Notes under the pieces: generated by a model | The model's database searches: none | What the model was told of the DNA's origin: nothing | Seen by the model: the letters and a program-made list of their open reading frames with translations, nothing else | Made by a program: the position numbers and the translations under genes | Source of the DNA: an uncultured Acidimicrobiaceae bacterium | Lineage (GTDB): Bacteria; Actinomycetota; Acidimicrobiia; Acidimicrobiales; SZUA-35 | Length of the DNA stretch: 64,000 nt | NCBI GenBank assembly: GCA_947259095.1 | Contig: CAMYLA010000013.1 | Span: forward strand, 1 to 64,000 | Direction of reading: 5' to 3' | In this document: piece by piece, positions 6,538-16,385 of the stretch | Layout: each line of letters starts with the position of its first letter | How positions within the stretch are numbered: the first letter of the stretch is position 1

Positions 6538-7416
6538 TCACCGGCCAAAGGACCGGGCCGATCGATTCGCCACCACGTACTGAACGGCCCGCACCGAGCT
6601 GTCGAGCAGGAAACCGATCACCCCTGCCGCGTAGATCCCGACCATGATCACGTCGCTTCGATCCTGGGCGAACCACACCAGGGCGCCGAGGCCGGTCGAG
6701 GCCAGGACGGTCTCCACGGCCAAGACGGTGGCCCAGGCCAACAGCAACGCCGACCGCATCCCGGCGATCAGCTCCCGCCGCAGATCGGCGATCGTGCCGC
6801 GGGCGGCGCCCATCCTGGCATCGGAGGCCGAGCCCATGGTGGTCCACAGCACCGTCATCGCAACCACTGCCACCATCGCCGCCTGACCAGCCCCGAACCA
6901 GACGATCACCAGCGGGGCAACCGCCAGCCCCGGCACCATGCGGAAGAACGACGTGATCGGATCGATCACCGTCCTGGTCAACGGGGCGGCGCCGGTTGCC
7001 AACCCGAGGCCGACCCCAAGGAGCGACCCGATGGTCAGGCCGAGGACCAGCCGCAGCAGGCTGGCACCGGCGTGGTGGGCCAGCGTCGCCCCGGCGTAGC
7101 CTTCGGAGCGGACCTCGTTGAATGCCGTCGCAACCTGGGTCTGGGTCGGCAGGGCATCGTCGCTGACGAGTCCGGATGGCAGCTTCACCAGGTACCAGGT
7201 GATGGTGACGATGATGAAGGCGAAGGCCGCACCGACAATCCGCCGCCACAGCCAGATCGAGGGCTCGCCGTACTCGAGCCGATGGCGGGCCGCCAGCTCC
7301 TGTTGGCGGTGGCCGGCCACCAGGTCGAGCACCGTCCGGCCGGCCGCCGAAGCGTCGAGGCCTGCCAGCGGTCGCCGAGGGTCGACGGTGGTTGCGGGCT
7401 CGGGAGCGCTCGACAC
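6538..7416 (-). CDS. ABC transporter permease, TauC/SsuC/NrtB type
   Basis: 292-residue inner-membrane permease with about six hydrophobic helices and the cytoplasmic coupling region typical of the nitrate/sulfonate/taurine family (LLRLVLGLTIGSLLGVGLGL; VPGLAVAPLVIVWFGAG). Its usual partners, an ATPase and a solute-binding protein, are not adjacent on either side, so it is an orphan here and its substrate is unknown. I chose the GTG at 7416 because GGAG sits seven bases upstream; a TTG at 7440 would add eight residues. It converges with the OmpA-domain gene and lies downstream of the formate dehydrogenase operon on the same strand, about 100 bases away. Confidence 0.8.
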   Translation of the reverse strand: MSSAPEPATTVDPRRPLAGLDASAAGRTVLDLVAGHRQQELAARHRLEYGEPSIWLWRRIVGAAFAFIIVTITWYLVKLPSGLVSDDALPTQTQVATAFNEVRSEGYAGATLAHHAGASLLRLVLGLTIGSLLGVGLGLATGAAPLTRTVIDPITSFFRMVPGLAVAPLVIVWFGAGQAAMVAVVAMTVLWTTMGSASDARMGAARGTIADLRRELIAGMRSALLLAWATVLAVETVLASTGLGALVWFAQDRSDVIMVGIYAAGVIGFLLDSSVRAVQYVVANRSARSFGR

Positions 7417-7516
7417 GACAGGTCTCCGGTGTGGGATCAACCCGACGTCTGCCGGCCGGTGAGGCGGCGCTGATCGGGTCAGGCGGCGGTTGGACCCGAG
7501 TTTAGGTCAGCCCGGC

Positions 7517-8371
7517 TCACGTTCCGTGGACGTACTGCCAGCCGAAGCGACCCTTGATGCAGAGGTGGCCGCTGGTCACGCTGTGATCGTTCGGCGAGGT
7601 GACCTTGACGATCGTCTCGTCCTGGACATGCAGTTCGAGGTTGCAGCCGACCCCACAGTAGGAACAGACGGTGGTGGTGACCGTCTGCTCCTCCGGCTTC
7701 CAACGGTCGGCCTGGCGGAGGTCGAACTCGGTCTTGAACTGGAGGGCGTTGGTTGGGCAAACGGCAACGCAGTTGCCGCAGTACACACAGGCCGAGTCCG
7801 GCAGTGCGGTGTCGAACTCGGTGCTGATCCGGGCGTCGAAACCCCGACCGGCTACGGCGATGGCAAACGTGTGCTGGGCATCGTCGCCGCAGGCCTCGAC
7901 ACACTTGTAGCACAGCACACACTTGTCGTAGTCCCGGATGTAGAGGTCGTCCTGGATCCGGATCTCCTCTTCGATCCGTGCCGCCGCCGGACCGTAGCGC
8001 TCGGGGGCGGCGCCGTAGTGGGCGCTCCAGCGAGCCAGCTCGTCGGCCTGGCTGAGGTCGACACCCGATCCGAGGAACTCGAGGATCATCTTGCGGCTGT
8101 GGCGGACCCGCTCGCTGTCGGTCTCGATCACCATCCCGTCCTCGGCCGCCCGGGAGCACGACGGCACCAGCGTTCGCGAGCCCTCCTGTTCGACCACGCA
8201 GACCCGGCAGGCGTTGACCGGCGTCAGGGTCTCGGCGTAGCACAACGTCGGGGTTTCAACCCCCGCTGCGTTGCAGGCGTCGAGCACGCTGTCCCCGGCC
8301 CCGATCGCCACCTCGTTGCCGTCGATGGTGAGCCGGACCGGTGTTGCAACCGGGTCGGTGCGGTCACTCAT
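7517..8371 (-). CDS. Formate dehydrogenase iron-sulfur subunit (split FdsA N-part)
   Basis: 284 residues matching the N-terminal electron-transfer part of FdsA/NuoG-like proteins. An N-terminal ferredoxin domain binds [2Fe-2S] (C-Y..., then CRVC, then C-S-R). Two [4Fe-4S] sets follow, CVLCYKCVEAC and CVYCGNCVAVCP. At the extreme C-terminus is the molybdopterin-family [4Fe-4S] motif CSYCGVGC...CIKG. It then stops at GRFGWQYVHGT, exactly where the molybdenum domain normally begins. The NuoG-type His/Cys cluster is not visible. This is the last gene of the fdh operon; its ATG overlaps the upstream stop by four bases, so translation is coupled. The subunit would carry electrons between the Mo site and the flavin subunit. 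Confidence 0.88.
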   Translation of the reverse strand: MSDRTDPVATPVRLTIDGNEVAIGAGDSVLDACNAAGVETPTLCYAETLTPVNACRVCVVEQEGSRTLVPSCSRAAEDGMVIETDSERVRHSRKMILEFLGSGVDLSQADELARWSAHYGAAPERYGPAAARIEEEIRIQDDLYIRDYDKCVLCYKCVEACGDDAQHTFAIAVAGRGFDARISTEFDTALPDSACVYCGNCVAVCPTNALQFKTEFDLRQADRWKPEEQTVTTTVCSYCGVGCNLELHVQDETIVKVTSPNDHSVTSGHLCIKGRFGWQYVHGT

Positions 8372-10269
8372 GATCCTGCCTCGGTTCCGTTGGGTTCGCC
8401 CGTCTCGATCGTGGCGTCGGCCTGGTTCGTGGTGGCGGCCTCGGAGCTGGGGGCCTCGGGGCTTGGGGTCGGTGGGTCCTCACCGAGCAGTCCGAGGGCG
8501 ATCGCCGATCGGACCGCGGTGGCCGCGGTATGACCGAGACCGCAGATCGAGGCATCCTTCATGGCCCGGTCGATGTCTTCGAGCAAGGCCACACTGGCCG
8601 AAGCCGGTCGCCGCATCTGGCCGGCCGGCCCGGCCGCCGCGCCGGTCAACCCGACCAGGATCTCGTGCTGGCGCACGGTGCCGACCCGGCAGGGGACGCA
8701 CTGGCCACACGATTCGTTGCGAAAGAACTCGGCCACCCTGGTGATCACCGGCGCCATGTCGACGTCGGTGTTGAACGCCATGATCACCCCCGACCCCAGC
8801 GAGACGCCGGCGGCCCGGGATGCTTCGAAGGTCAGCGGCATCTCGAGCCCATCGGGCCCGACAAAGCTCCCGGCCGCCCCGCCGAGCAGGACGGTGGCCA
8901 ACTGGCCGACGACCCCGCCGGCCAGTGCCAGGACCTCGGCCAGCGTGGCCCCGAAGTCGACCTCGTACACCCCCGGCCTGGCCACGTTGCCGCTCAGGCA
9001 GAACAGCTTGGAGCCGGTCGATTTGTCGGTGCCGACCGAGGCGTATGCCGCCCCCCCATCGAGCACGATGTCCAACACGTTGACCAGGGTCTCGGGGTTG
9101 TTGACCGCGGTCGGCCGATCGAACAGGCCGTTGGTGGTCGGAAACGGTGGCTTCTGGCGGGGTTCACCCCGGAAACCCTCGAGCGAGTTGAACAGCGCCG
9201 TCTCCTCACCGCAGATGTAGGCTCCGGCCCCCCGCCGAACCTCGACATCGAACGAGAAGCCCGACCGGGCGATCCTCTCCCCCAGGAAGCCGGCGTCCCG
9301 GGCCTGGGAGATGGCGTTGTCGAGGCGGGCGGTGGCCAGTGGGTACTCACCCCTGATGTAGATCCAACCCTTGGTGGCGCCGGTGGCGAACCCGGCGATG
9401 GTCAGCGCTTCGATCACGGCGAACGGATCGTTCTCCAGCAGCACCCGATCCTTGAAGGTGCCCGGCTCCGATTCGTCGGCGTTGACAACGACGTACTTCT
9501 CAGCGTTGACCGCGGACCCGGCGACCGTGGAGGCGTCTGCGGCGGCCACCGCCCGCCACTTGCTCCCGGTGGGAAAGGCAGCGCCGCCGCGACCAAGCAG
9601 TCCGGAGGTGACGACCTCCTCAACCACCCCGCCGGCGCCAAGCGAGAAGGCCCTGGCCAACGCCTTGTAGCCGCCGGCGCCGACGTAACTCTCCAGGCTG
9701 GTGGGATCGACCCGGCCGATACGGCGAAGCAGCCGCAGGCCGGGTTGACCGACCTGGGGAATCGCAGAGGGCTCGGTGTCGGCCTCGACCCTATCGGGGC
9801 GGGCCCGACCCTGGATGAACCGGGCCACCGGCCGTTCGCACTGGCCGAGACAGGGGCTCTCGTGGACCACGGCACCGCCGGCCCGGAGTTCGGCGATCCG
9901 GTCCGCCGAACCGGCGATCTGGCAGGCGGCATCGACGCACACGTGGACGACGTCTTGGTCGTGGCCCGGGTCGTCGACCCGGAACAGTTCGTAGAACGTG
10001 GCGACACCGTAGGCCTCGGCCGGTGGCACCTGGAGCTGCTCGCAGGCGTAGTTCAAGCCGCCGGGCGAGATCCAGCCCATCCGGTTCTGCAGGGCGTGCA
10101 GCACCGGCAACAACAGATGGCGACGCTCATCGCGCCGGGTTGCGCCGCTTCGAACCAATCGCTCGGACTCGACGATCACCGCCGGGCCCGACGCCCTGCC
10201 GACAACATCGTCGACCGCACGCCGCTCGGCCTCGCCGGCCTGCTCGGCCCCGATGAAAAGGTCAGACAC
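8368..10269 (-). CDS. NAD-dependent formate dehydrogenase, fused NuoE/NuoF-type subunit
   Basis: 633 residues combining two usually separate subunits (FdsG + FdsB). Residues ~40-170 are a NuoE/thioredoxin-like [2Fe-2S] domain (VHVCVDAAC and SPCLGQC). Residues ~190-600 are NuoF-like: GRGGAAFPTGSKW (NADH/FMN glycine-rich loop), NADESEPGTFKD (FMN site), GAYICGEETAL, and the C-terminal [4Fe-4S] motif ESCGQCVPCRVG with a later CGLG cysteine. It passes electrons from formate to FMN and NAD+. Its start overlaps the end of the Mo subunit gene by eight bases and its stop overlaps the next start by four, so the operon is tightly coupled. Confidence 0.92.
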   Translation of the reverse strand: MSDLFIGAEQAGEAERRAVDDVVGRASGPAVIVESERLVRSGATRRDERRHLLLPVLHALQNRMGWISPGGLNYACEQLQVPPAEAYGVATFYELFRVDDPGHDQDVVHVCVDAACQIAGSADRIAELRAGGAVVHESPCLGQCERPVARFIQGRARPDRVEADTEPSAIPQVGQPGLRLLRRIGRVDPTSLESYVGAGGYKALARAFSLGAGGVVEEVVTSGLLGRGGAAFPTGSKWRAVAAADASTVAGSAVNAEKYVVVNADESEPGTFKDRVLLENDPFAVIEALTIAGFATGATKGWIYIRGEYPLATARLDNAISQARDAGFLGERIARSGFSFDVEVRRGAGAYICGEETALFNSLEGFRGEPRQKPPFPTTNGLFDRPTAVNNPETLVNVLDIVLDGGAAYASVGTDKSTGSKLFCLSGNVARPGVYEVDFGATLAEVLALAGGVVGQLATVLLGGAAGSFVGPDGLEMPLTFEASRAAGVSLGSGVIMAFNTDVDMAPVITRVAEFFRNESCGQCVPCRVGTVRQHEILVGLTGAAAGPAGQMRRPASASVALLEDIDRAMKDASICGLGHTAATAVRSAIALGLLGEDPPTPSPEAPSSEAATTNQADATIETGEPNGTEAGS

Positions 10270-12298
10270 CGCCGACCTCGACCTCGACCTCGTCCGCGAT
10301 TTCGACCTCGACCTCGGCCAGGGCCGCCCCCTTCGAGGCTGCCGCAGTCGATGGCTGTGGGGGCAGCTTCTCGACCCTGATCGACGCCGCCTTGAACTCG
10401 GCGGTGCCCGACTTGGGGTCCCAGGCGTCGTTGGTCAACAGGTTCACGTCGACGAGCTCGGGGAAGTGGAACGTGGTGAATGTCAGGCCGACCGGGAGGT
10501 CGATCTGGATCCGGGCCGGCATCTCGACCGAACCCCGAGGCGACGACACCAGCACCCACTCGCCGTCCTCGATACCCAGCCGCTCGGCGTCGGCCGGGCT
10601 CAGGTCGATCGTCTCCCCGTAGCGGATCGGTGAAGCCATCGAACCGGACTGCACCCCGGTGTTGTAGGAATCGAGGGCCCGGCCGGTGGTCAGTCGCAGC
10701 GGGAACGCTTCGGTCAACTGCTCTCGCGGCCCCTCATGGGACACCGCATGGAACGGCGCACCGGATCGCCCGCCGAGATCGTCCTCCCACAGCCAGCCGT
10801 GGAGGAACGGGCTGCCGGGATGGTCCTCGCTCGGACAGGGCCACTGGAGGCCACCTTCGGCTTCCAGCCGCGACCACGACATCCCGAGATGCAGCGGCGA
10901 CAGGCTGCGCAGCTCATCCCACAGCTCCTCGGCGGTGGGATGGCCCCAGTCCGCCCCCATCCGGTTGGCCAGCTCCGCGATGATGTCGATGTCGTGTCTG
11001 GCCTCACCGGGAGGAGGCACGGCGGCCCGGACCCGCTGAACCCGACGCTCGCTCGACGTGACGGTGCCGTCGGACTCGGCCCAGGCCACCGAGGCGGGAA
11101 AGACCACGTCGGCCAGCTCGGCGGTCCTGGTGAGGAAGATGTCCTGCACCACCAGCAGGTCGAGGTCGGACAGCAGCCGACGGGCGTGGGCAACGTCGGC
11201 TTCGGAGTCGGCCGGGTTCTCGCCGAGGCAGTAGACGGCCCGGAGGTCCTTGGTCTCCATGGCCTCGAACATCAGGGTCAGGTGGATACCGGGTTCGGGC
11301 GGGATCGAGGTCCCCCAGACCCGTTCGAACTTGGCCCTGGCGTCCGGGTCGGTGATGGCCTGGAACCCGGGCAGCTTGTCCGGCAGTGCGCCCATGTCGC
11401 CCCCGCCCTGCACGTTGTTCTGGCCCCGCAGCGGCACCAGACCGGAGCCCCAGCGGCCGATGTGGCCGGTGAGCAGGGCCAGGTTGCACAGCGACAACAC
11501 GTTGTCGACCGCATTGTGATGCTCGGTGATGCCGAGCGTCCACAGGATCTGGGCCTTGGCCGCGGTGGCGTAGGCTTGGGCCAGCTCGGCGATGGCGGCG
11601 GCGGGGACGCCGGTGATCTCCGATGCGTGGTGCAGGGTGTAGGGCTCGACCGACGCTCTGTAGGCCTCGAAGCCGGTGGTCGCCCGATCGATGAAGGCCT
11701 GGTCGTGCCACCCATTGGCGATGATCTCCCGGCCGATGGCGTTGGCCAGCGCAATGTCGGTGCCAACGCTCAGCCCCAGCCACACGTCGGCGAACTTGGC
11801 GGACGAGGTCCGCCTGGGGTCGACACAGAACATCTTGGCCCCGTTGTCGAGGCCCTTCATGAGGTGGTGGAAGAAGATCGGGTGGGCTTCACGGGCGTTG
11901 GAGCCCCACAGCACGATCACATCGGTTTCCTCGATCTCGGCATAGGACGAGGTGCCGCCGCCTGCTCCGAACACTGTCGCCAGACCGACGACGGAGGGAG
12001 CGTGTCAAGTTCGATTGCAGGAATCGATGTTGTTGGTGCCGAGCACCGTCCTGGCGAACTTCTGGGCTGCGAAGTTCATCTCGTTCGTCGACTTCGAACA
12101 GCTGAACATCCCGACCGCCCCGGGGCCGTGCCGGTCGATCACGTCCCGGAAACCGGCGCCGGCCCGGTCGAGGGCCTCGTCCCAGGATGCGGGACGCAGC
12201 TCACCGTCGTCACGAACCATGGGTGTGGTCAACCGTGGCCGAGGGGTCACCGTCCTCAACGGTCCTCGACGGTTGGATCTCCCGTTGCGGCTACCCAT
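10262..12298 (-). CDS. Formate dehydrogenase catalytic (Mo/W) subunit, selenocysteine-containing
   Basis: 678 residues when the in-frame UGA at 12007-12005 is read as selenocysteine (residue 98). The two open frames on either side of the UGA are in the same phase and together make one molybdopterin oxidoreductase. Upstream is RLTTPMVRDDGELRPASWDEAL; at the active site is SCNRT-Sec-HAPSVVGLA, the 'C/U-H' position of formate dehydrogenases; the C-terminal domain binds the pterin dinucleotide (YNTGVQSGSM...). A SECIS hairpin follows the UGA. The molybdopterin-family Fe4S4 motif is absent here and is found in the 7517-8371 gene. The tail is a repetitive EVEVEI stretch. The ATG at 12298 is the only ATG before an upstream stop (12362), but its ribosome site is weak. 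Confidence 0.9.
11964..12007 (-). promoter_or_regulatory. UGA codon and SECIS element
   Basis: Directly after the UGA (12007-12005), GUCGUC (11992-11987) pairs with GGCGAC (11981-11976, one G-U) around a GGUCU loop. An outer stem pairs GCUCC (12001-11997) with GGAGC (11968-11964). The GGU of the apical loop is the seventh codon after UGA, the same position as in E. coli fdhF, where SelB reads it. This supports recoding rather than a nonsense mutation. Confidence 0.88.
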
Positions 12299-12551: not shown

Positions 12552-14297
12552 ATGCGATGGTCAAAACTGTTCATCCCCACCCTTCGCGATGCCCCGGCCG
12601 ATGCCGATGCGGCGAGCCATGCGTTGCTGGTCCAAGGCGGGTTCATCCGCCAACTGCACGCCGGCCACTATTCCTTGTTGCCGCTGGGATGGCGGGTCCA
12701 CAACAAGGTGGCGAACATCGTTCGCCAGGAGATGGACGCCCTCGGCGCCCAGGAGTTCCTCCTCCCGACCATGCACCCGGCCGAGATCTGGAAGCAGTCC
12801 GGCCGGTGGGACACGATGGGCGAGATCATGTTCCGGCTGAAAGACCGGCGGGGCAACGACATGGCGTTGGGTATCACCCACGAGGAGATCTTCGCCACCG
12901 TGGCGGGTGAGCTGACCTCGTACAAGGAACTGCCGCAGCTGTGGTACCACATCCAGATCAAGTATCGGGACGAGGCCAGGCCGAAGAGCGGCCTACTGCG
13001 GGTCCGCGAGTTCGCCATGAAGGACTCCTACTCCTTCGACACCTCCTGGGAGGGACTGGACGCCCAGTTCGAGGCCCACGAGCGGGCATACACCCGGATC
13101 TTCGAGCGCCTCGGGCTGCCCGCCATCCCGGTCGAGGCCAGCAGCGGTGCCATGGGCGGCAACGACTCGACCGAGTTCATGGTGCCGTGCCCGGCCGGTG
13201 AGGACGACGTGGTCCAGTGCCCGAATTGCGACTACGCCGGCAATATCGAGAAAGCCACCTCGGCGCTGCCGCCGATCACCGATCCGCCGGCGGCCAGACC
13301 CGATGGACCGGAGCGGTTCCCCACCCCCGGGGTCCGCACCATCGCCGCCCTCCAGGAGTTCGACGGTGGCGCCGAGGCGACCCGCCAGATCAAGACGATG
13401 GTCATGGTGATCGACGACGAGGTCGTCCTGGCCCTCCTGCGAGGCGACCACCAGCTCAACATCCAGAAACTGATCGATGCCACCGGTGGCATCGTGGTCC
13501 GGCCGGCAACGGCCGAGGAGGCCAAGGCCAACCTCGGCGCCATGCCCGGCAGTCTCGGCGCGGTCGGGGTCGAGCAGCTGCGGGTCATCGCCGACCTGGC
13601 CCTCGAGGGTCGGACAAACCTCACCACCGGCGCCAATGAAGACGATTGGCACCACCGGGGTGTCGACATCGCCCGCGACATCGCCGTCGACGAATGGGCC
13701 GACCTGCGGGAGGTGTCGGCCGGCGAGGCCTGCCCCAAGTGCGGTTCGGAGCTGGAGATCGTCCGCTGCGTCGAGGCCGGCCACATCTTCAAGCTCGGCG
13801 CCCTCTACGCCGAGAAGTTCGACATCTCGGTGTCGGATGCCGATGGCGGCCGCCAGCCGGTCATCATGGGCAGCTATGGCATCGGCATCGGCCGCAACAT
13901 GGCCACCGTGGCCGAGACGTACCACGACGACAAGGGTCTGATATGGCCGGTCTCGGTTGCCCCGTACGAGGCGGTGATCACGGTCATGAAGCTCGACGAG
14001 ACGACGCTGGGGGCCGCCGAGGACATCTACAACGGGCTCCGGGCCAGGGGGGTCGACGTGTTGCTCGACGATCGGGATGCCCGAGCCGGCGTGAAGTTCG
14101 CCGATGCCGAGCTGATCGGCATCCCCTACCGGCTCACCGTCGGGCCGAAGTCGTTGGCCGATGGCGAAGTGGAGTGGACCAGCCGGGCCACCGGCGAAAC
14201 CAAGCGCATCGGCCTGTCGATCGCGGTCGACACGGTGGCCGACGCCATCATCGCCGAAGCGGGCCCTGCGCCCCGGACCATTCCCGGGCTCGTCTGA
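12552..14297 (+). CDS. proS: Prolyl-tRNA synthetase (bacterial type)
   Basis: 581 residues, full length for bacterial ProRS with the insertion (editing) domain between class II motifs 2 and 3. Visible are motif 1 (QEMDALGAQEFLLPTMHPAEIW), motif 2 (RDEARPKSGLLRVREF), an insertion domain around residues 225-385, motif 3 (GSYGIGIGRN) and the C-terminal anticodon-binding domain (DVLLDDRDARAGVKFADAELIG). It charges tRNA-Pro in the cytoplasm. The ATG at 12552 begins MRWSKLFIPT, the normal family start, with AAGG just upstream. It is divergent from the formate dehydrogenase operon; the 253-base gap must hold both promoters. Confidence 0.96.
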   Translation: MRWSKLFIPTLRDAPADADAASHALLVQGGFIRQLHAGHYSLLPLGWRVHNKVANIVRQEMDALGAQEFLLPTMHPAEIWKQSGRWDTMGEIMFRLKDRRGNDMALGITHEEIFATVAGELTSYKELPQLWYHIQIKYRDEARPKSGLLRVREFAMKDSYSFDTSWEGLDAQFEAHERAYTRIFERLGLPAIPVEASSGAMGGNDSTEFMVPCPAGEDDVVQCPNCDYAGNIEKATSALPPITDPPAARPDGPERFPTPGVRTIAALQEFDGGAEATRQIKTMVMVIDDEVVLALLRGDHQLNIQKLIDATGGIVVRPATAEEAKANLGAMPGSLGAVGVEQLRVIADLALEGRTNLTTGANEDDWHHRGVDIARDIAVDEWADLREVSAGEACPKCGSELEIVRCVEAGHIFKLGALYAEKFDISVSDADGGRQPVIMGSYGIGIGRNMATVAETYHDDKGLIWPVSVAPYEAVITVMKLDETTLGAAEDIYNGLRARGVDVLLDDRDARAGVKFADAELIGIPYRLTVGPKSLADGEVEWTSRATGETKRIGLSIAVDTVADAIIAEAGPAPRTIPGLV

Positions 14298-14422: not shown

Positions 14423-15331
14423 ATGAAGATCGCCATCAACGGGTCCGGGCTGCTGGCCCGACCGAACCTCGACGTCCTGCTCAAGGACATCACCAGGGCC
14501 GAGCAGGCCGGACTGGGCGGGTACTGGCTGGCCCAGACCGGCCTCGTCGACTCGCTGACCGTGTTTGCGGTGGCCGGGAACTCGACCAGCTCGATCGAGT
14601 TGGGAACCGCGGTCGTGCCGACCTGGCCCAGACACCCCCAGGCCCTGGCGGCCCAGGCCCTCACCACCCAGGCCGCAACCGGTGGGCGGACGATCCTGGG
14701 GATCGGCCTGGCCCACAAGCCCTCGGTGGAAGACCGATGGCGGATGACGTGGGAGAAGCCGATACGGCACATGCTCGACTACCTCGGGGTCCTGGAGGAG
14801 CTGCTGGCCACCGGCAAGTCGTCATACGAGGGTGAGGTGTGGTCGTTCGTCGGCGAGGCTCCGCTGCCGGTTGACAACCCGCCGAGCCTGATGCTCGCCG
14901 CCCTCGGCGACCAGATGCTGCGGATCGCCGGCAAACGCAGTGACGGCACGATCCTGTGGTGTGTCGGGCCAAAGACCCTGGAGCGCCAGATCGTGCCCGG
15001 GATCAGCGAGGCCGCGGCCGAAGCCGGCCGTCCCGCTCCCCGCGTGGTCGCCAGCCTGCCGGTCTGGGTCACCGACCGGCCAGACGATGCCCACAACGTG
15101 GTTGCCGATTCGCTCACCATCTACGGCCAGCTGCCCTCCTATCGGGCCATGCTGGACATCGAAGGTGTCGACGGACCGGCCGACATCTCGCTGATCGGCA
15201 GCGAGGCCCAGGTCGCAGAAGGCCTGGCCACGATCGCCGCCGCCGGTGCCACCGACTTCACCGCCGTCATCCAGGGTTTCGACCAGGACGAACGGGAGCG
15301 GGCCTGGCAGGTGTTGGCGGCGGCAGTGTAG
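14423..15331 (+). CDS. LLM-class F420/flavin-dependent oxidoreductase
   Basis: 302-residue luciferase-like TIM-barrel protein. It starts MKIAINGSG and has the family features of an early substrate/cofactor strand (GLGGYWLAQTG), an 'ELGTAVVPTWPRHP' strand and a 'GGRTILGIGLAHK' glycine segment. Such proteins use F420 (in actinobacteria) or FMN to oxidise or reduce small organic molecules; the substrate is unknown. It lies 125 bases after proS and 43 bases before a second LLM-class gene, so the two are probably co-transcribed. Confidence 0.85.
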   Translation: MKIAINGSGLLARPNLDVLLKDITRAEQAGLGGYWLAQTGLVDSLTVFAVAGNSTSSIELGTAVVPTWPRHPQALAAQALTTQAATGGRTILGIGLAHKPSVEDRWRMTWEKPIRHMLDYLGVLEELLATGKSSYEGEVWSFVGEAPLPVDNPPSLMLAALGDQMLRIAGKRSDGTILWCVGPKTLERQIVPGISEAAAEAGRPAPRVVASLPVWVTDRPDDAHNVVADSLTIYGQLPSYRAMLDIEGVDGPADISLIGSEAQVAEGLATIAAAGATDFTAVIQGFDQDERERAWQVLAAAV

Positions 15332-15374: not shown

Positions 15375-16385
15375 ATGAAGGTCGGAGTCTTGCAGTTCTT
15401 CAGCTGGCCCGGTCGCAAGGCCCCGATCGAGTCGGTCTACCAGCGGGCGCTCGAGCGTATCGAGGTCATGGATCGCACCGGGTACGACGCGGTCTGGCTG
15501 GCTGAACACCACTTCAACGCCTTCAGCGTCTGCCCATCGGTGACCATGATGGGGACCCTGGTCGCAGCCAGAACCGAGCGACTTCGGATCGGCACCGCCG
15601 GCACGCTGGCCGGCCTCCACCATCCGCTCCACCTGGCCGAGCAGCTGGCCCTGCTCGACGTGCTGTCCGACGGCAGGCTCAACTGGGGTGCGGCCCGGGG
15701 TTTCGACAGCACCGAGTTCCGGGCCTTCGACGTCGAGGCCTCCGAAACCGTCGATCGATTCCGGGAGAACGTGCTGGCGGTGCTGGCGGCCTGGGGATCC
15801 GAGCGGGCGTCGTTCCATGGCCGCTACGTGTCGTTCGACGACATCGAGCTGCTCCCGAAGCCCGCCCAGCGCCCGATGCCGCCGACGTGGCTGGCGGTGA
15901 GCTCGCCGCCGGCCATCGGCTGGGCCGCTGAGCAGGGCCTGCCGATCCTGATGGATCCCCACAGTTCCCATCGTGAGATCGGCCGCAAGCTCGGGCTGTG
16001 GCGGGCGGCGATGGCCGACAACGGCCACCATCACGAACAGTTCGACATTCCCATCGCCAGGCTGTTGGCCGTGGCCGACACCGATGCCGAGGCCGAGGCG
16101 GTGGCCCGCCGGGGGGCGGGGTGGATGATCGGCAGCTACGTGGGGGCCGGGACCAAGAAGGTGCTGGCCCAGGGCGCGGACGCCCCGATGGATCTCGCAC
16201 CGGATGTCGATCCGGTCGACCGCTATGTCGACGAGGTGATGGTGTGGGGCTCACCGGCCAGGGTCGTCGACCAGCTGGAGCAGCTCCGGGAAACCATTCC
16301 CCTGGCCTATCTGATGGCCGCGCCGCTGAGCGGGCGATCTTTTGACCTGCTGACCGAGCGGGTCCTGCCCGCCATCGCCCGTTAG
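15375..16385 (+). CDS. LLM-class flavin-dependent oxidoreductase (bacterial luciferase-like)
   Basis: 336 residues with a bacterial-luciferase-like barrel: GYDAVWLAEHHFNAFSV (the EHH motif of this branch), LRIGTAGTLAGLHHPLHLAEQLALLD and LSDGRLNWGAARGF. It belongs to a different LLM subfamily from its upstream neighbour and is more monooxygenase-like. The ATG at 15375 has GGAAAAG immediately upstream. The substrate is unknown. It probably forms an operon with the preceding gene. Confidence 0.85.
   Translation: MKVGVLQFFSWPGRKAPIESVYQRALERIEVMDRTGYDAVWLAEHHFNAFSVCPSVTMMGTLVAARTERLRIGTAGTLAGLHHPLHLAEQLALLDVLSDGRLNWGAARGFDSTEFRAFDVEASETVDRFRENVLAVLAAWGSERASFHGRYVSFDDIELLPKPAQRPMPPTWLAVSSPPAIGWAAEQGLPILMDPHSSHREIGRKLGLWRAAMADNGHHHEQFDIPIARLLAVADTDAEAEAVARRGAGWMIGSYVGAGTKKVLAQGADAPMDLAPDVDPVDRYVDEVMVWGSPARVVDQLEQLRETIPLAYLMAAPLSGRSFDLLTERVLPAIAR

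Follow-up and report, generated by a model that had tools for sequence, protein, structure and literature searches.

Does the stop codon that interrupts a formate dehydrogenase gene in this stretch of DNA mark the site of a selenocysteine (Sec), and to what kind of enzyme does the gene belong? The window, by which we mean the whole stretch of 64,000 nucleotides that was analysed, is part of contig C13 in a draft host genome of 6.39 Mb (229 contigs, 96% complete, 7.1% contaminated). Three genes follow one another on its minus strand, in transcription order at 12298..10262, 10269..8368 and 8371..7517. We refer to them as AC, NuoEF and AN; they encode 678, 633 and 284 amino acids, respectively. 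With the predicted starts, the end of AC overlaps NuoEF by 8 nt and the end of NuoEF overlaps AN by 4 nt. The features of the locus are the following.

10262..12298, minus strand: fdhA C-terminal part (AC), 678 aa with predicted Sec98; metal-bis-MGD domains PF00384 and PF01568
12005..12007, minus strand: in-frame UGA, very probably read as selenocysteine, at the position of FdhF U140; from the read-through frame, homologues and FdhF alignment
11976..11992, minus strand: bacterial SECIS hairpin with a 6-bp stem and GGUCU loop (loop 11986..11982); comparative evidence
10264..10262, minus strand: UGA stop codon of AC, end of the read-through frame
8368..10269, minus strand: NuoE-NuoF fusion, diaphorase subunit; thioredoxin-like 2Fe-2S, FMN/NADH, SLBB and 4Fe-4S domains
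7517..8371, minus strand: fdhA N-terminal part (AN), 284 aa; 2Fe-2S, 4Fe-4S and molybdopterin Fe4S4 domains
7526..7684, minus strand: C-terminal Molybdop_Fe4S4 domain of AN, containing C236, C239, C243, C271 and K273

The operon is flanked on the same strand, directly past its end, by an ABC-transporter permease gene (PF00528, window 6541-7440). On its other side, a prolyl-tRNA-synthetase-like gene runs in the opposite direction (12552..14294), and beyond it lie two adjoining luciferase-like (PF00296) genes on the plus strand (window 14423-15328 and 15375-16382).

An in-frame UGA at the active-site position

The minus-strand ORF 12298..12005 closes with ...NNIDSCNRT-UGA, and the same frame then runs HAPSVVGLATVFGAGG... 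until the UGA at 10264..10262. Reading through the UGA at 12007..12005 yields a single frame of 678 residues. Translation table 11 gives two ORFs, just as the preliminary description of this DNA had anticipated in stating that an automatic annotator would split the gene. PF00384 matches positions 1-353 of the read-through protein and spans the UGA; the fragment reaching nine codons beyond the UGA matches at 1-88, and the ORF starting at 11974 at 99-353. Frame and similarity therefore do continue on both sides of the UGA, as had been claimed. In an alignment with E. coli FdhF, the UGA (U98) falls on U140, H99 on H141 and R291 on R333, as in the alpha subunit of Sec-containing formate dehydrogenases, which confirms the proposed location of the UGA exactly at the active-site Sec/Cys position. 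The preliminary description placed a formate dehydrogenase catalytic subunit at 11964-12298. The identity and the site hold, while the span needs correction, as it takes in roughly the first sixth of the gene and no more, and the ORF encodes the C-terminal part alone, not the whole subunit.

The SCNRT motif that precedes the UGA occurs in 133 of 141 scanned loci. The next codon is TGA in 129 of these 133 and a Cys codon (TGT or TGC) in the other four, in keeping with the expectation that homologues would carry U or C at this position. All four Cys-codon loci come from family f78, whose genomes measure 6-10 Mb. The 129 UGA loci are the window, sets of 38, nine and 80 loci, and L098, in which a Sec-type AC is truncated by the contig end; they yield 115 distinct 60-mers and 68 distinct 33-mers. 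The stop codon in this formate dehydrogenase gene is very probably decoded as selenocysteine. The sequence is best read as the gene of a Sec-containing formate dehydrogenase with a SECIS element, and the protein itself would then contain selenocysteine.

A constrained hairpin follows the UGA

In the hairpin at 11992..11976, GUCGUC pairs with GGCGAC around the GGUCU loop. The GGT of GGTCT begins 21 nt from the first base of the UGA both here and in E. coli fdhF, so that the equal distance given in the preliminary description proved correct. Among the 68 distinct 33-base stretches that follow the UGA in homologues, GGTCT is kept in all 68, and 406 of the 408 pair cells of the stem are standard. 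Pair 15-27 is C-G in 62 stretches and G-C in six, with no mixed pairs; the swap exchanges GTC..GCG for GTG..GCC and leaves the amino acids unchanged, a double-synonymous covariation. Its G-C carriers stand at three separate places in the tree described below (L080/L081, L086 and L106/L112), with L133 absent from that tree. None of 20000 column shuffles, which ignore kinship, equalled the observed stem. Two of the six stem pairs are invariant and therefore uninformative.

The seventh codon is GGT in 115 of 115 distinct 60-mers; further downstream, GGT makes up 17% of the glycine codons (117 of the UGA genes). GGT is replaced by GGG or GGA in the four Cys forms, whose stems have one to three of the six pairs broken. 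When the 3' side was shifted out of register by one, two or three positions, pairing dropped from 99.5% to 16-84%; the raised values at +3 (84%) and -3 (65%) are put down to a putative codon periodicity.

Folding the bases after the UGA, a check proposed in the preliminary description, gave no support from energy in stretches of 35, 39 or 58 nt. As a single sequence of 35 nt the hairpin is unremarkable, with 143 of 200 shuffles folding as well; the corresponding figure for 58 nt is 142 of 200, and for the stretches of 39 and 58 nt a structure other than the hairpin is the optimal fold. A search across the window at the Rfam gathering cut-off reached zero families. A SECIS element with a GGU loop follows the UGA, and the evidence for it is comparative.

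Selenocysteine machinery in the host and its relatives

The presence of selA, selB, selC and selD elsewhere in the genome had been predicted, and all four were found. The host has a tRNA-Sec with anticodon TCA, and its selA and selB are adjacent on a 4.8-kb contig, separate from the operon contig; SelB carries a GTPase domain and SelB-wing_3. Absence of selB and tRNA-Sec had been named as an observation that would refute the selenocysteine reading, and both are present in the draft genome. Host selA is 57-61% and selB 56-59% identical to the genes of four genomes of the order, where the two are adjacent as well. These identities and the adjacency fit the lineage, the alternative being a contaminant contig. 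The fdhD gene is also present. The selD gene is present twice; both copies are interrupted in frame by a TGA at one shared position, and 212 of 308 residues are identical (contigs C27, 8618-9541, and C83, 1757-2680, of the host genome G000; loci L019 and L020); they are either paralogues or derive from a second strain within the bin. The cut-off used for tRNA-Sec was also passed by 5 of 14 control genomes, and those for selB and selD by 2 of 14.

Across the host's class, selA (E <= 1e-60) is found in 257 of 395 genomes, so the earlier statement that selenoproteins are rare in actinobacteria does not apply to this class. The UGA gene is present in at least 138 class genomes, a lower bound counted among the matches listed with at least 60% identity and at least one TGA, partial matches included; none of the listed class matches at this identity is without a TGA. 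The selA gene accompanies it in 125 of the 138, compared with 132 of the other 257 genomes (Fisher p 2.6e-16, the genomes being non-independent). Ten of the 13 UGA-gene genomes without selA at this cut-off are less than 90% complete, and three are not (G234, G292 and G364).

Among the 33 genomes of other classes listed at 60% identity or more, 28 have the TGA, four have the Cys form (G729, G542, G512 and G698), and in the fifth without TGA, G560, the match begins past the Sec position. All nine UGA genomes tested from other classes have selA, one of them as two sub-cut-off pieces. In the Cys-form genomes selA lies above the cut-off in one of four, and two further f78 genomes have none. The exception is G729 (L100), an f78 genome with a TGT codon, which unlike the other three Cys genomes retains selA above the cut-off and possibly reflects a recent Sec-to-Cys change. 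A separate observation concerns genus g89 of family f34: selA occurs in 34 of its genomes among the matches listed (0.7-1.1 Mb), and these genomes are absent among the listed genomes that match this formate dehydrogenase.

Two other explanations of the interrupted frame were weighed against these data and dropped. A draft of 229 contigs with 7.1% contamination invites the suspicion of a nonsense mutation, a pseudogene or an assembly error in the host genome. We regard this as extremely improbable, given the identical UGA in 129 of 133 motif loci, the Cys codons in the remaining four, the sel genes and the conservation on both sides of the UGA; a downstream part without conservation in homologues had been named as a further ground for rejecting selenocysteine, and the homologues do conserve this part. 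If the UGA were instead a genuine stop, the two ORFs would encode separate proteins, and the second ORF indeed has a GTG start at 11974. The chance of this is minimal, since the break falls on the active-site Sec/Cys and His, four homologues place a Cys codon at the position and the SECIS element is under constraint.

The catalytic subunit is divided over two genes

The ORF with the in-frame UGA covers one part of the catalytic subunit, and the other part lies at the end of the operon. On the TIGR01591 model, positions 47-672 are matched by AC (657 bits) and positions 1-49 by the end of AN (56 bits), and neither half reaches the equivalog cut-off of 666.25. On FdsA of Rhodobacter capsulatus, AN covers 22-303 in two stretches and AC covers 303-933, together 22-933 with the joint at 303; on E. 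coli FdhF, AN covers 6-55 and AC 60-691. FdhF residues C8, C11, C15, C42 and K44 correspond to C236, C239, C243, C271 and K273 of AN, which are invariant in 15 of 15 and in 22 of 22 aligned AN sequences. The Sec, His and Arg of the active site are located on AC, and the Cys ligands of the [4Fe-4S] cluster, together with the lysine, on AN. Whereas the FdsABG type joins the 2Fe-2S, 4Fe-4S and Molybdop_Fe4S4 domains and the metal domains in a single chain, here the two groups are encoded by two genes. The predicted structure of AC (mean pLDDT 73.6) has FdhF entries as its two best PDB matches; that of AN is poor (mean pLDDT 53.4). Two separate proteins correspond to the catalytic subunit, and the order of their genes is swapped.

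Conservation and origin of the split

The order AC-NuoEF-AN was observed in 119 of 131 loci and contradicted in none; in the other 12 the contig ends no more than 452 bases away from the last visible gene. The 131 loci comprise 38 (of the 138 class genomes) and 13 (of the 33 from other classes), picked for spread, and 80 that are the best 80 of at least 571 confirmed, and the sample leans to close relatives. They contain 122 distinct AC sequences, nine pairs being the same contig in two collections. The nearest named records belong mostly to Acidimicrobiia, which makes the host most likely an acidimicrobiian, and include the isolate Ilumatobacter nonamiensis, with the UGA gene on its contig L138. 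Two bins labelled Planctomycetota (L195 and L199) also hold the split operon with the UGA, through either transfer or mis-binning. A plasmid collection gave 149 records matching AC and 44 matching AN at the limits set, all below 60% identity, so there is no close split relative among those records.

An intact form is present in nine more distant relatives, in all of which AN, or its Fe4S4 end, continues straight into AC. In four of these loci (L098, L099, L117 and L118) NuoF lies upstream, giving the order NuoF-AN-AC. The genome that carries L098 (G090) has, besides the intact formate dehydrogenase behind NuoF, the truncated split-type AC with Sec mentioned above. The f71 genomes L113-L116 (50-52% identity) were considered as another split form and rejected, as the Fe4S4 part lies directly before AC in all four. 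All four are intact. L113 has one frame with a TGA at codon 158 and its end at codon 711; by eye, a separate ORF upstream of it resembles fdhD.

The tree comprises 67 rows. Its 58 split rows, out of 132 available, form one clade with support of 100/100. Under midpoint rooting, the only rooting applied, the intact f71 form adjoins this clade; the four Cys forms lie inside it, and the basal forks are weak. We infer as the simplest history a single rotation of an ancestral NuoEF-FdhA operon that was broken between the Fe4S4 and metal domains. Because L113 also has a TGA, the rotation probably took place in a Sec user, with Cys in f78 arising later.

Comparison with known systems

The closest known system is that of Actinomycetospora chiangmaiensis DSM 45062, whose formate dehydrogenase FDH3 has alpha (with Sec), beta and gamma subunits of 640, 614 and 316 aa, compared with 678, 633 and 284 aa here; all three were detected in the proteome, and the enzyme is described as cytoplasmic and NAD+-dependent (PMC7176365). 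FdhD, SelA, SelB and SelD are in the same proteome, and formate removal by this organism depends on selenite (PMC7176365). Two further Sec enzymes (FDH1 and FDH2) occur there, so the selenium effect is no proof for FDH3 alone. In the passages that describe FDH3, the 316-aa protein is called the 'gamma subunit', with no mention of 'split' (PMC7176365). Likened by subunit sizes and description, FDH3 (WP_084681743.1, WP_018332443.1 and WP_018332444.1) very probably belongs to the split type.

FdsABG of R. capsulatus and formate dehydrogenase 1 of Methylorubrum extorquens both have a NuoE/NuoF-like diaphorase. In the window, too, such a diaphorase is encoded together with alpha, as in NAD+-dependent formate dehydrogenases of the FdsABG/FDH1 type. 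Both enzymes (6tg9, and 7vw6, which is labelled tungsten-containing) have the same alpha domains, and AN and AC together match FdsABG alpha end to end. In both, alpha is one chain of ~960-990 aa, whereas here it is encoded by two genes in swapped order and has Sec. E. coli FdhF shares with AC and AN the residues U140, H141, R333 and C8/C11/C15/C42/K44, as well as the distance from UGA to GGU, but is one chain of 715 residues. Its partners are not known to include NuoE/F. Formylmethanofuran dehydrogenase FwdB/FwdD is a member of the superfamily that also extends over two chains; there the C-terminal dinucleotide-binding domain is separate, whereas in the window enzyme it is the N-terminal Fe4S4 domain.

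Judged as a selenoprotein, the window enzyme is unexceptional and its family is common. One survey has formate dehydrogenase alpha as the largest family of selenoproteins, with 822 organisms (PMC5029168), an actinobacterial Sec formate dehydrogenase is already in print for Corynebacterium aurimucosum (PMC2830990), and SelA and SelB have been recorded in sponge symbiont bins of various phyla, with two Acidimicrobiia bins in the table (PMC5649159). The part worth passing on is the divided, reordered catalytic subunit. No description of a split or permuted formate dehydrogenase was found in titles, abstract openings and full-text phrases, a search that took in few subscription papers and preprints. 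The Sec gene is of interest for annotation: it shows as two ORFs under table 11, and each subunit half scores below the family cut-off. The split is also relevant to molybdoenzyme assembly, because in nitrate reductase the cluster is needed before the cofactor (PMC5123574): with cluster ligands and cofactor site on different polypeptides, the order of insertion could be probed by supplying one of the proteins or leaving it out. A clade in which Sec and Cys members both occur further offers a matched set for studying what selenocysteine costs and gains.

Proposed enzyme and its assembly

The UGA, the hairpin under constraint, the selenocysteine genes and the split with its order and conservation are directly observed. 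From them we propose with high confidence that the three-gene operon encodes an NAD+-type molybdenum (or tungsten) formate-oxidising selenoenzyme, probably cytoplasmic, whose catalytic subunit is made as two polypeptides. Selenocysteine would be inserted at the UGA by SelB and tRNA-Sec acting on the hairpin immediately downstream. AC would hold the bis-MGD cofactor, Sec98, His99 and Arg291, and AN the neighbouring [4Fe-4S] cluster with the lysine and the relay clusters; docking of AN on AC would complete the pocket. Following established knowledge of formate dehydrogenases, formate would be oxidised at the metal with Sec as a ligand. Electrons would then pass from the metal to the adjacent [4Fe-4S] cluster across the protein-protein joint, and through AN and NuoEF to NAD+. 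In FdhF the cluster lies close to the pterin site, at 6.1 A edge to edge, and the lysine between the two centres governs cluster occupancy, stability and activity (PMC12176258); in nitrate reductase the adjoining [4Fe-4S] cluster has to be inserted before the cofactor can be (PMC5123574). Because of these two precedents, our analysis suggests that AN may have to meet AC early during assembly.

The role assigned to AN could be questioned on the grounds that its first ~215 residues also resemble HoxU and hydrogenase subunits. AC would then be a complete enzyme that does without the adjoining [4Fe-4S] cluster, and AN a HoxU-like relay subunit of other descent. We consider this highly unlikely, as AN terminates in a Molybdop_Fe4S4 domain (PF04879, 6.4e-21) that includes the equivalent of K44, and on both FdsA and FdhF its match gives out at the point where that of AC starts. 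It is also quite unlikely that the enzyme acts mainly as a CO2 reductase or uses an acceptor other than NAD+. The direction of the reaction cannot be set from sequence, and among PDB sequences AC matches best the FdhF of the hydrogen-dependent CO2 reductase; yet the NuoE-NuoF diaphorase subunit with its FMN/NADH domain and the selenium-dependent removal of formate with the Actinomycetospora enzyme set (PMC7176365) argue against this reading.

The rotation could conceivably have been adaptive, in that a UGA as codon 98 of the leading gene, ahead of NuoEF and AN, would let low selenium switch off the whole complex; we find this rather doubtful. With selenium in short supply, ribosomes would stop at the UGA and translation of NuoEF and AN would not be restarted across the overlaps, which would spare iron and flavin otherwise wasted on the complex. 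The AC stop lies at most 10 nt before the start of the NuoEF match, or overlaps it, in 24 of 39 class loci. Against such gating, AC and NuoEF are further apart in 15 of the 39, including one locus (L085:4922-7610) with a gap of ~2.7 kb, no other gap in this set exceeding 139 nt, and the split order is retained in the four Cys forms.
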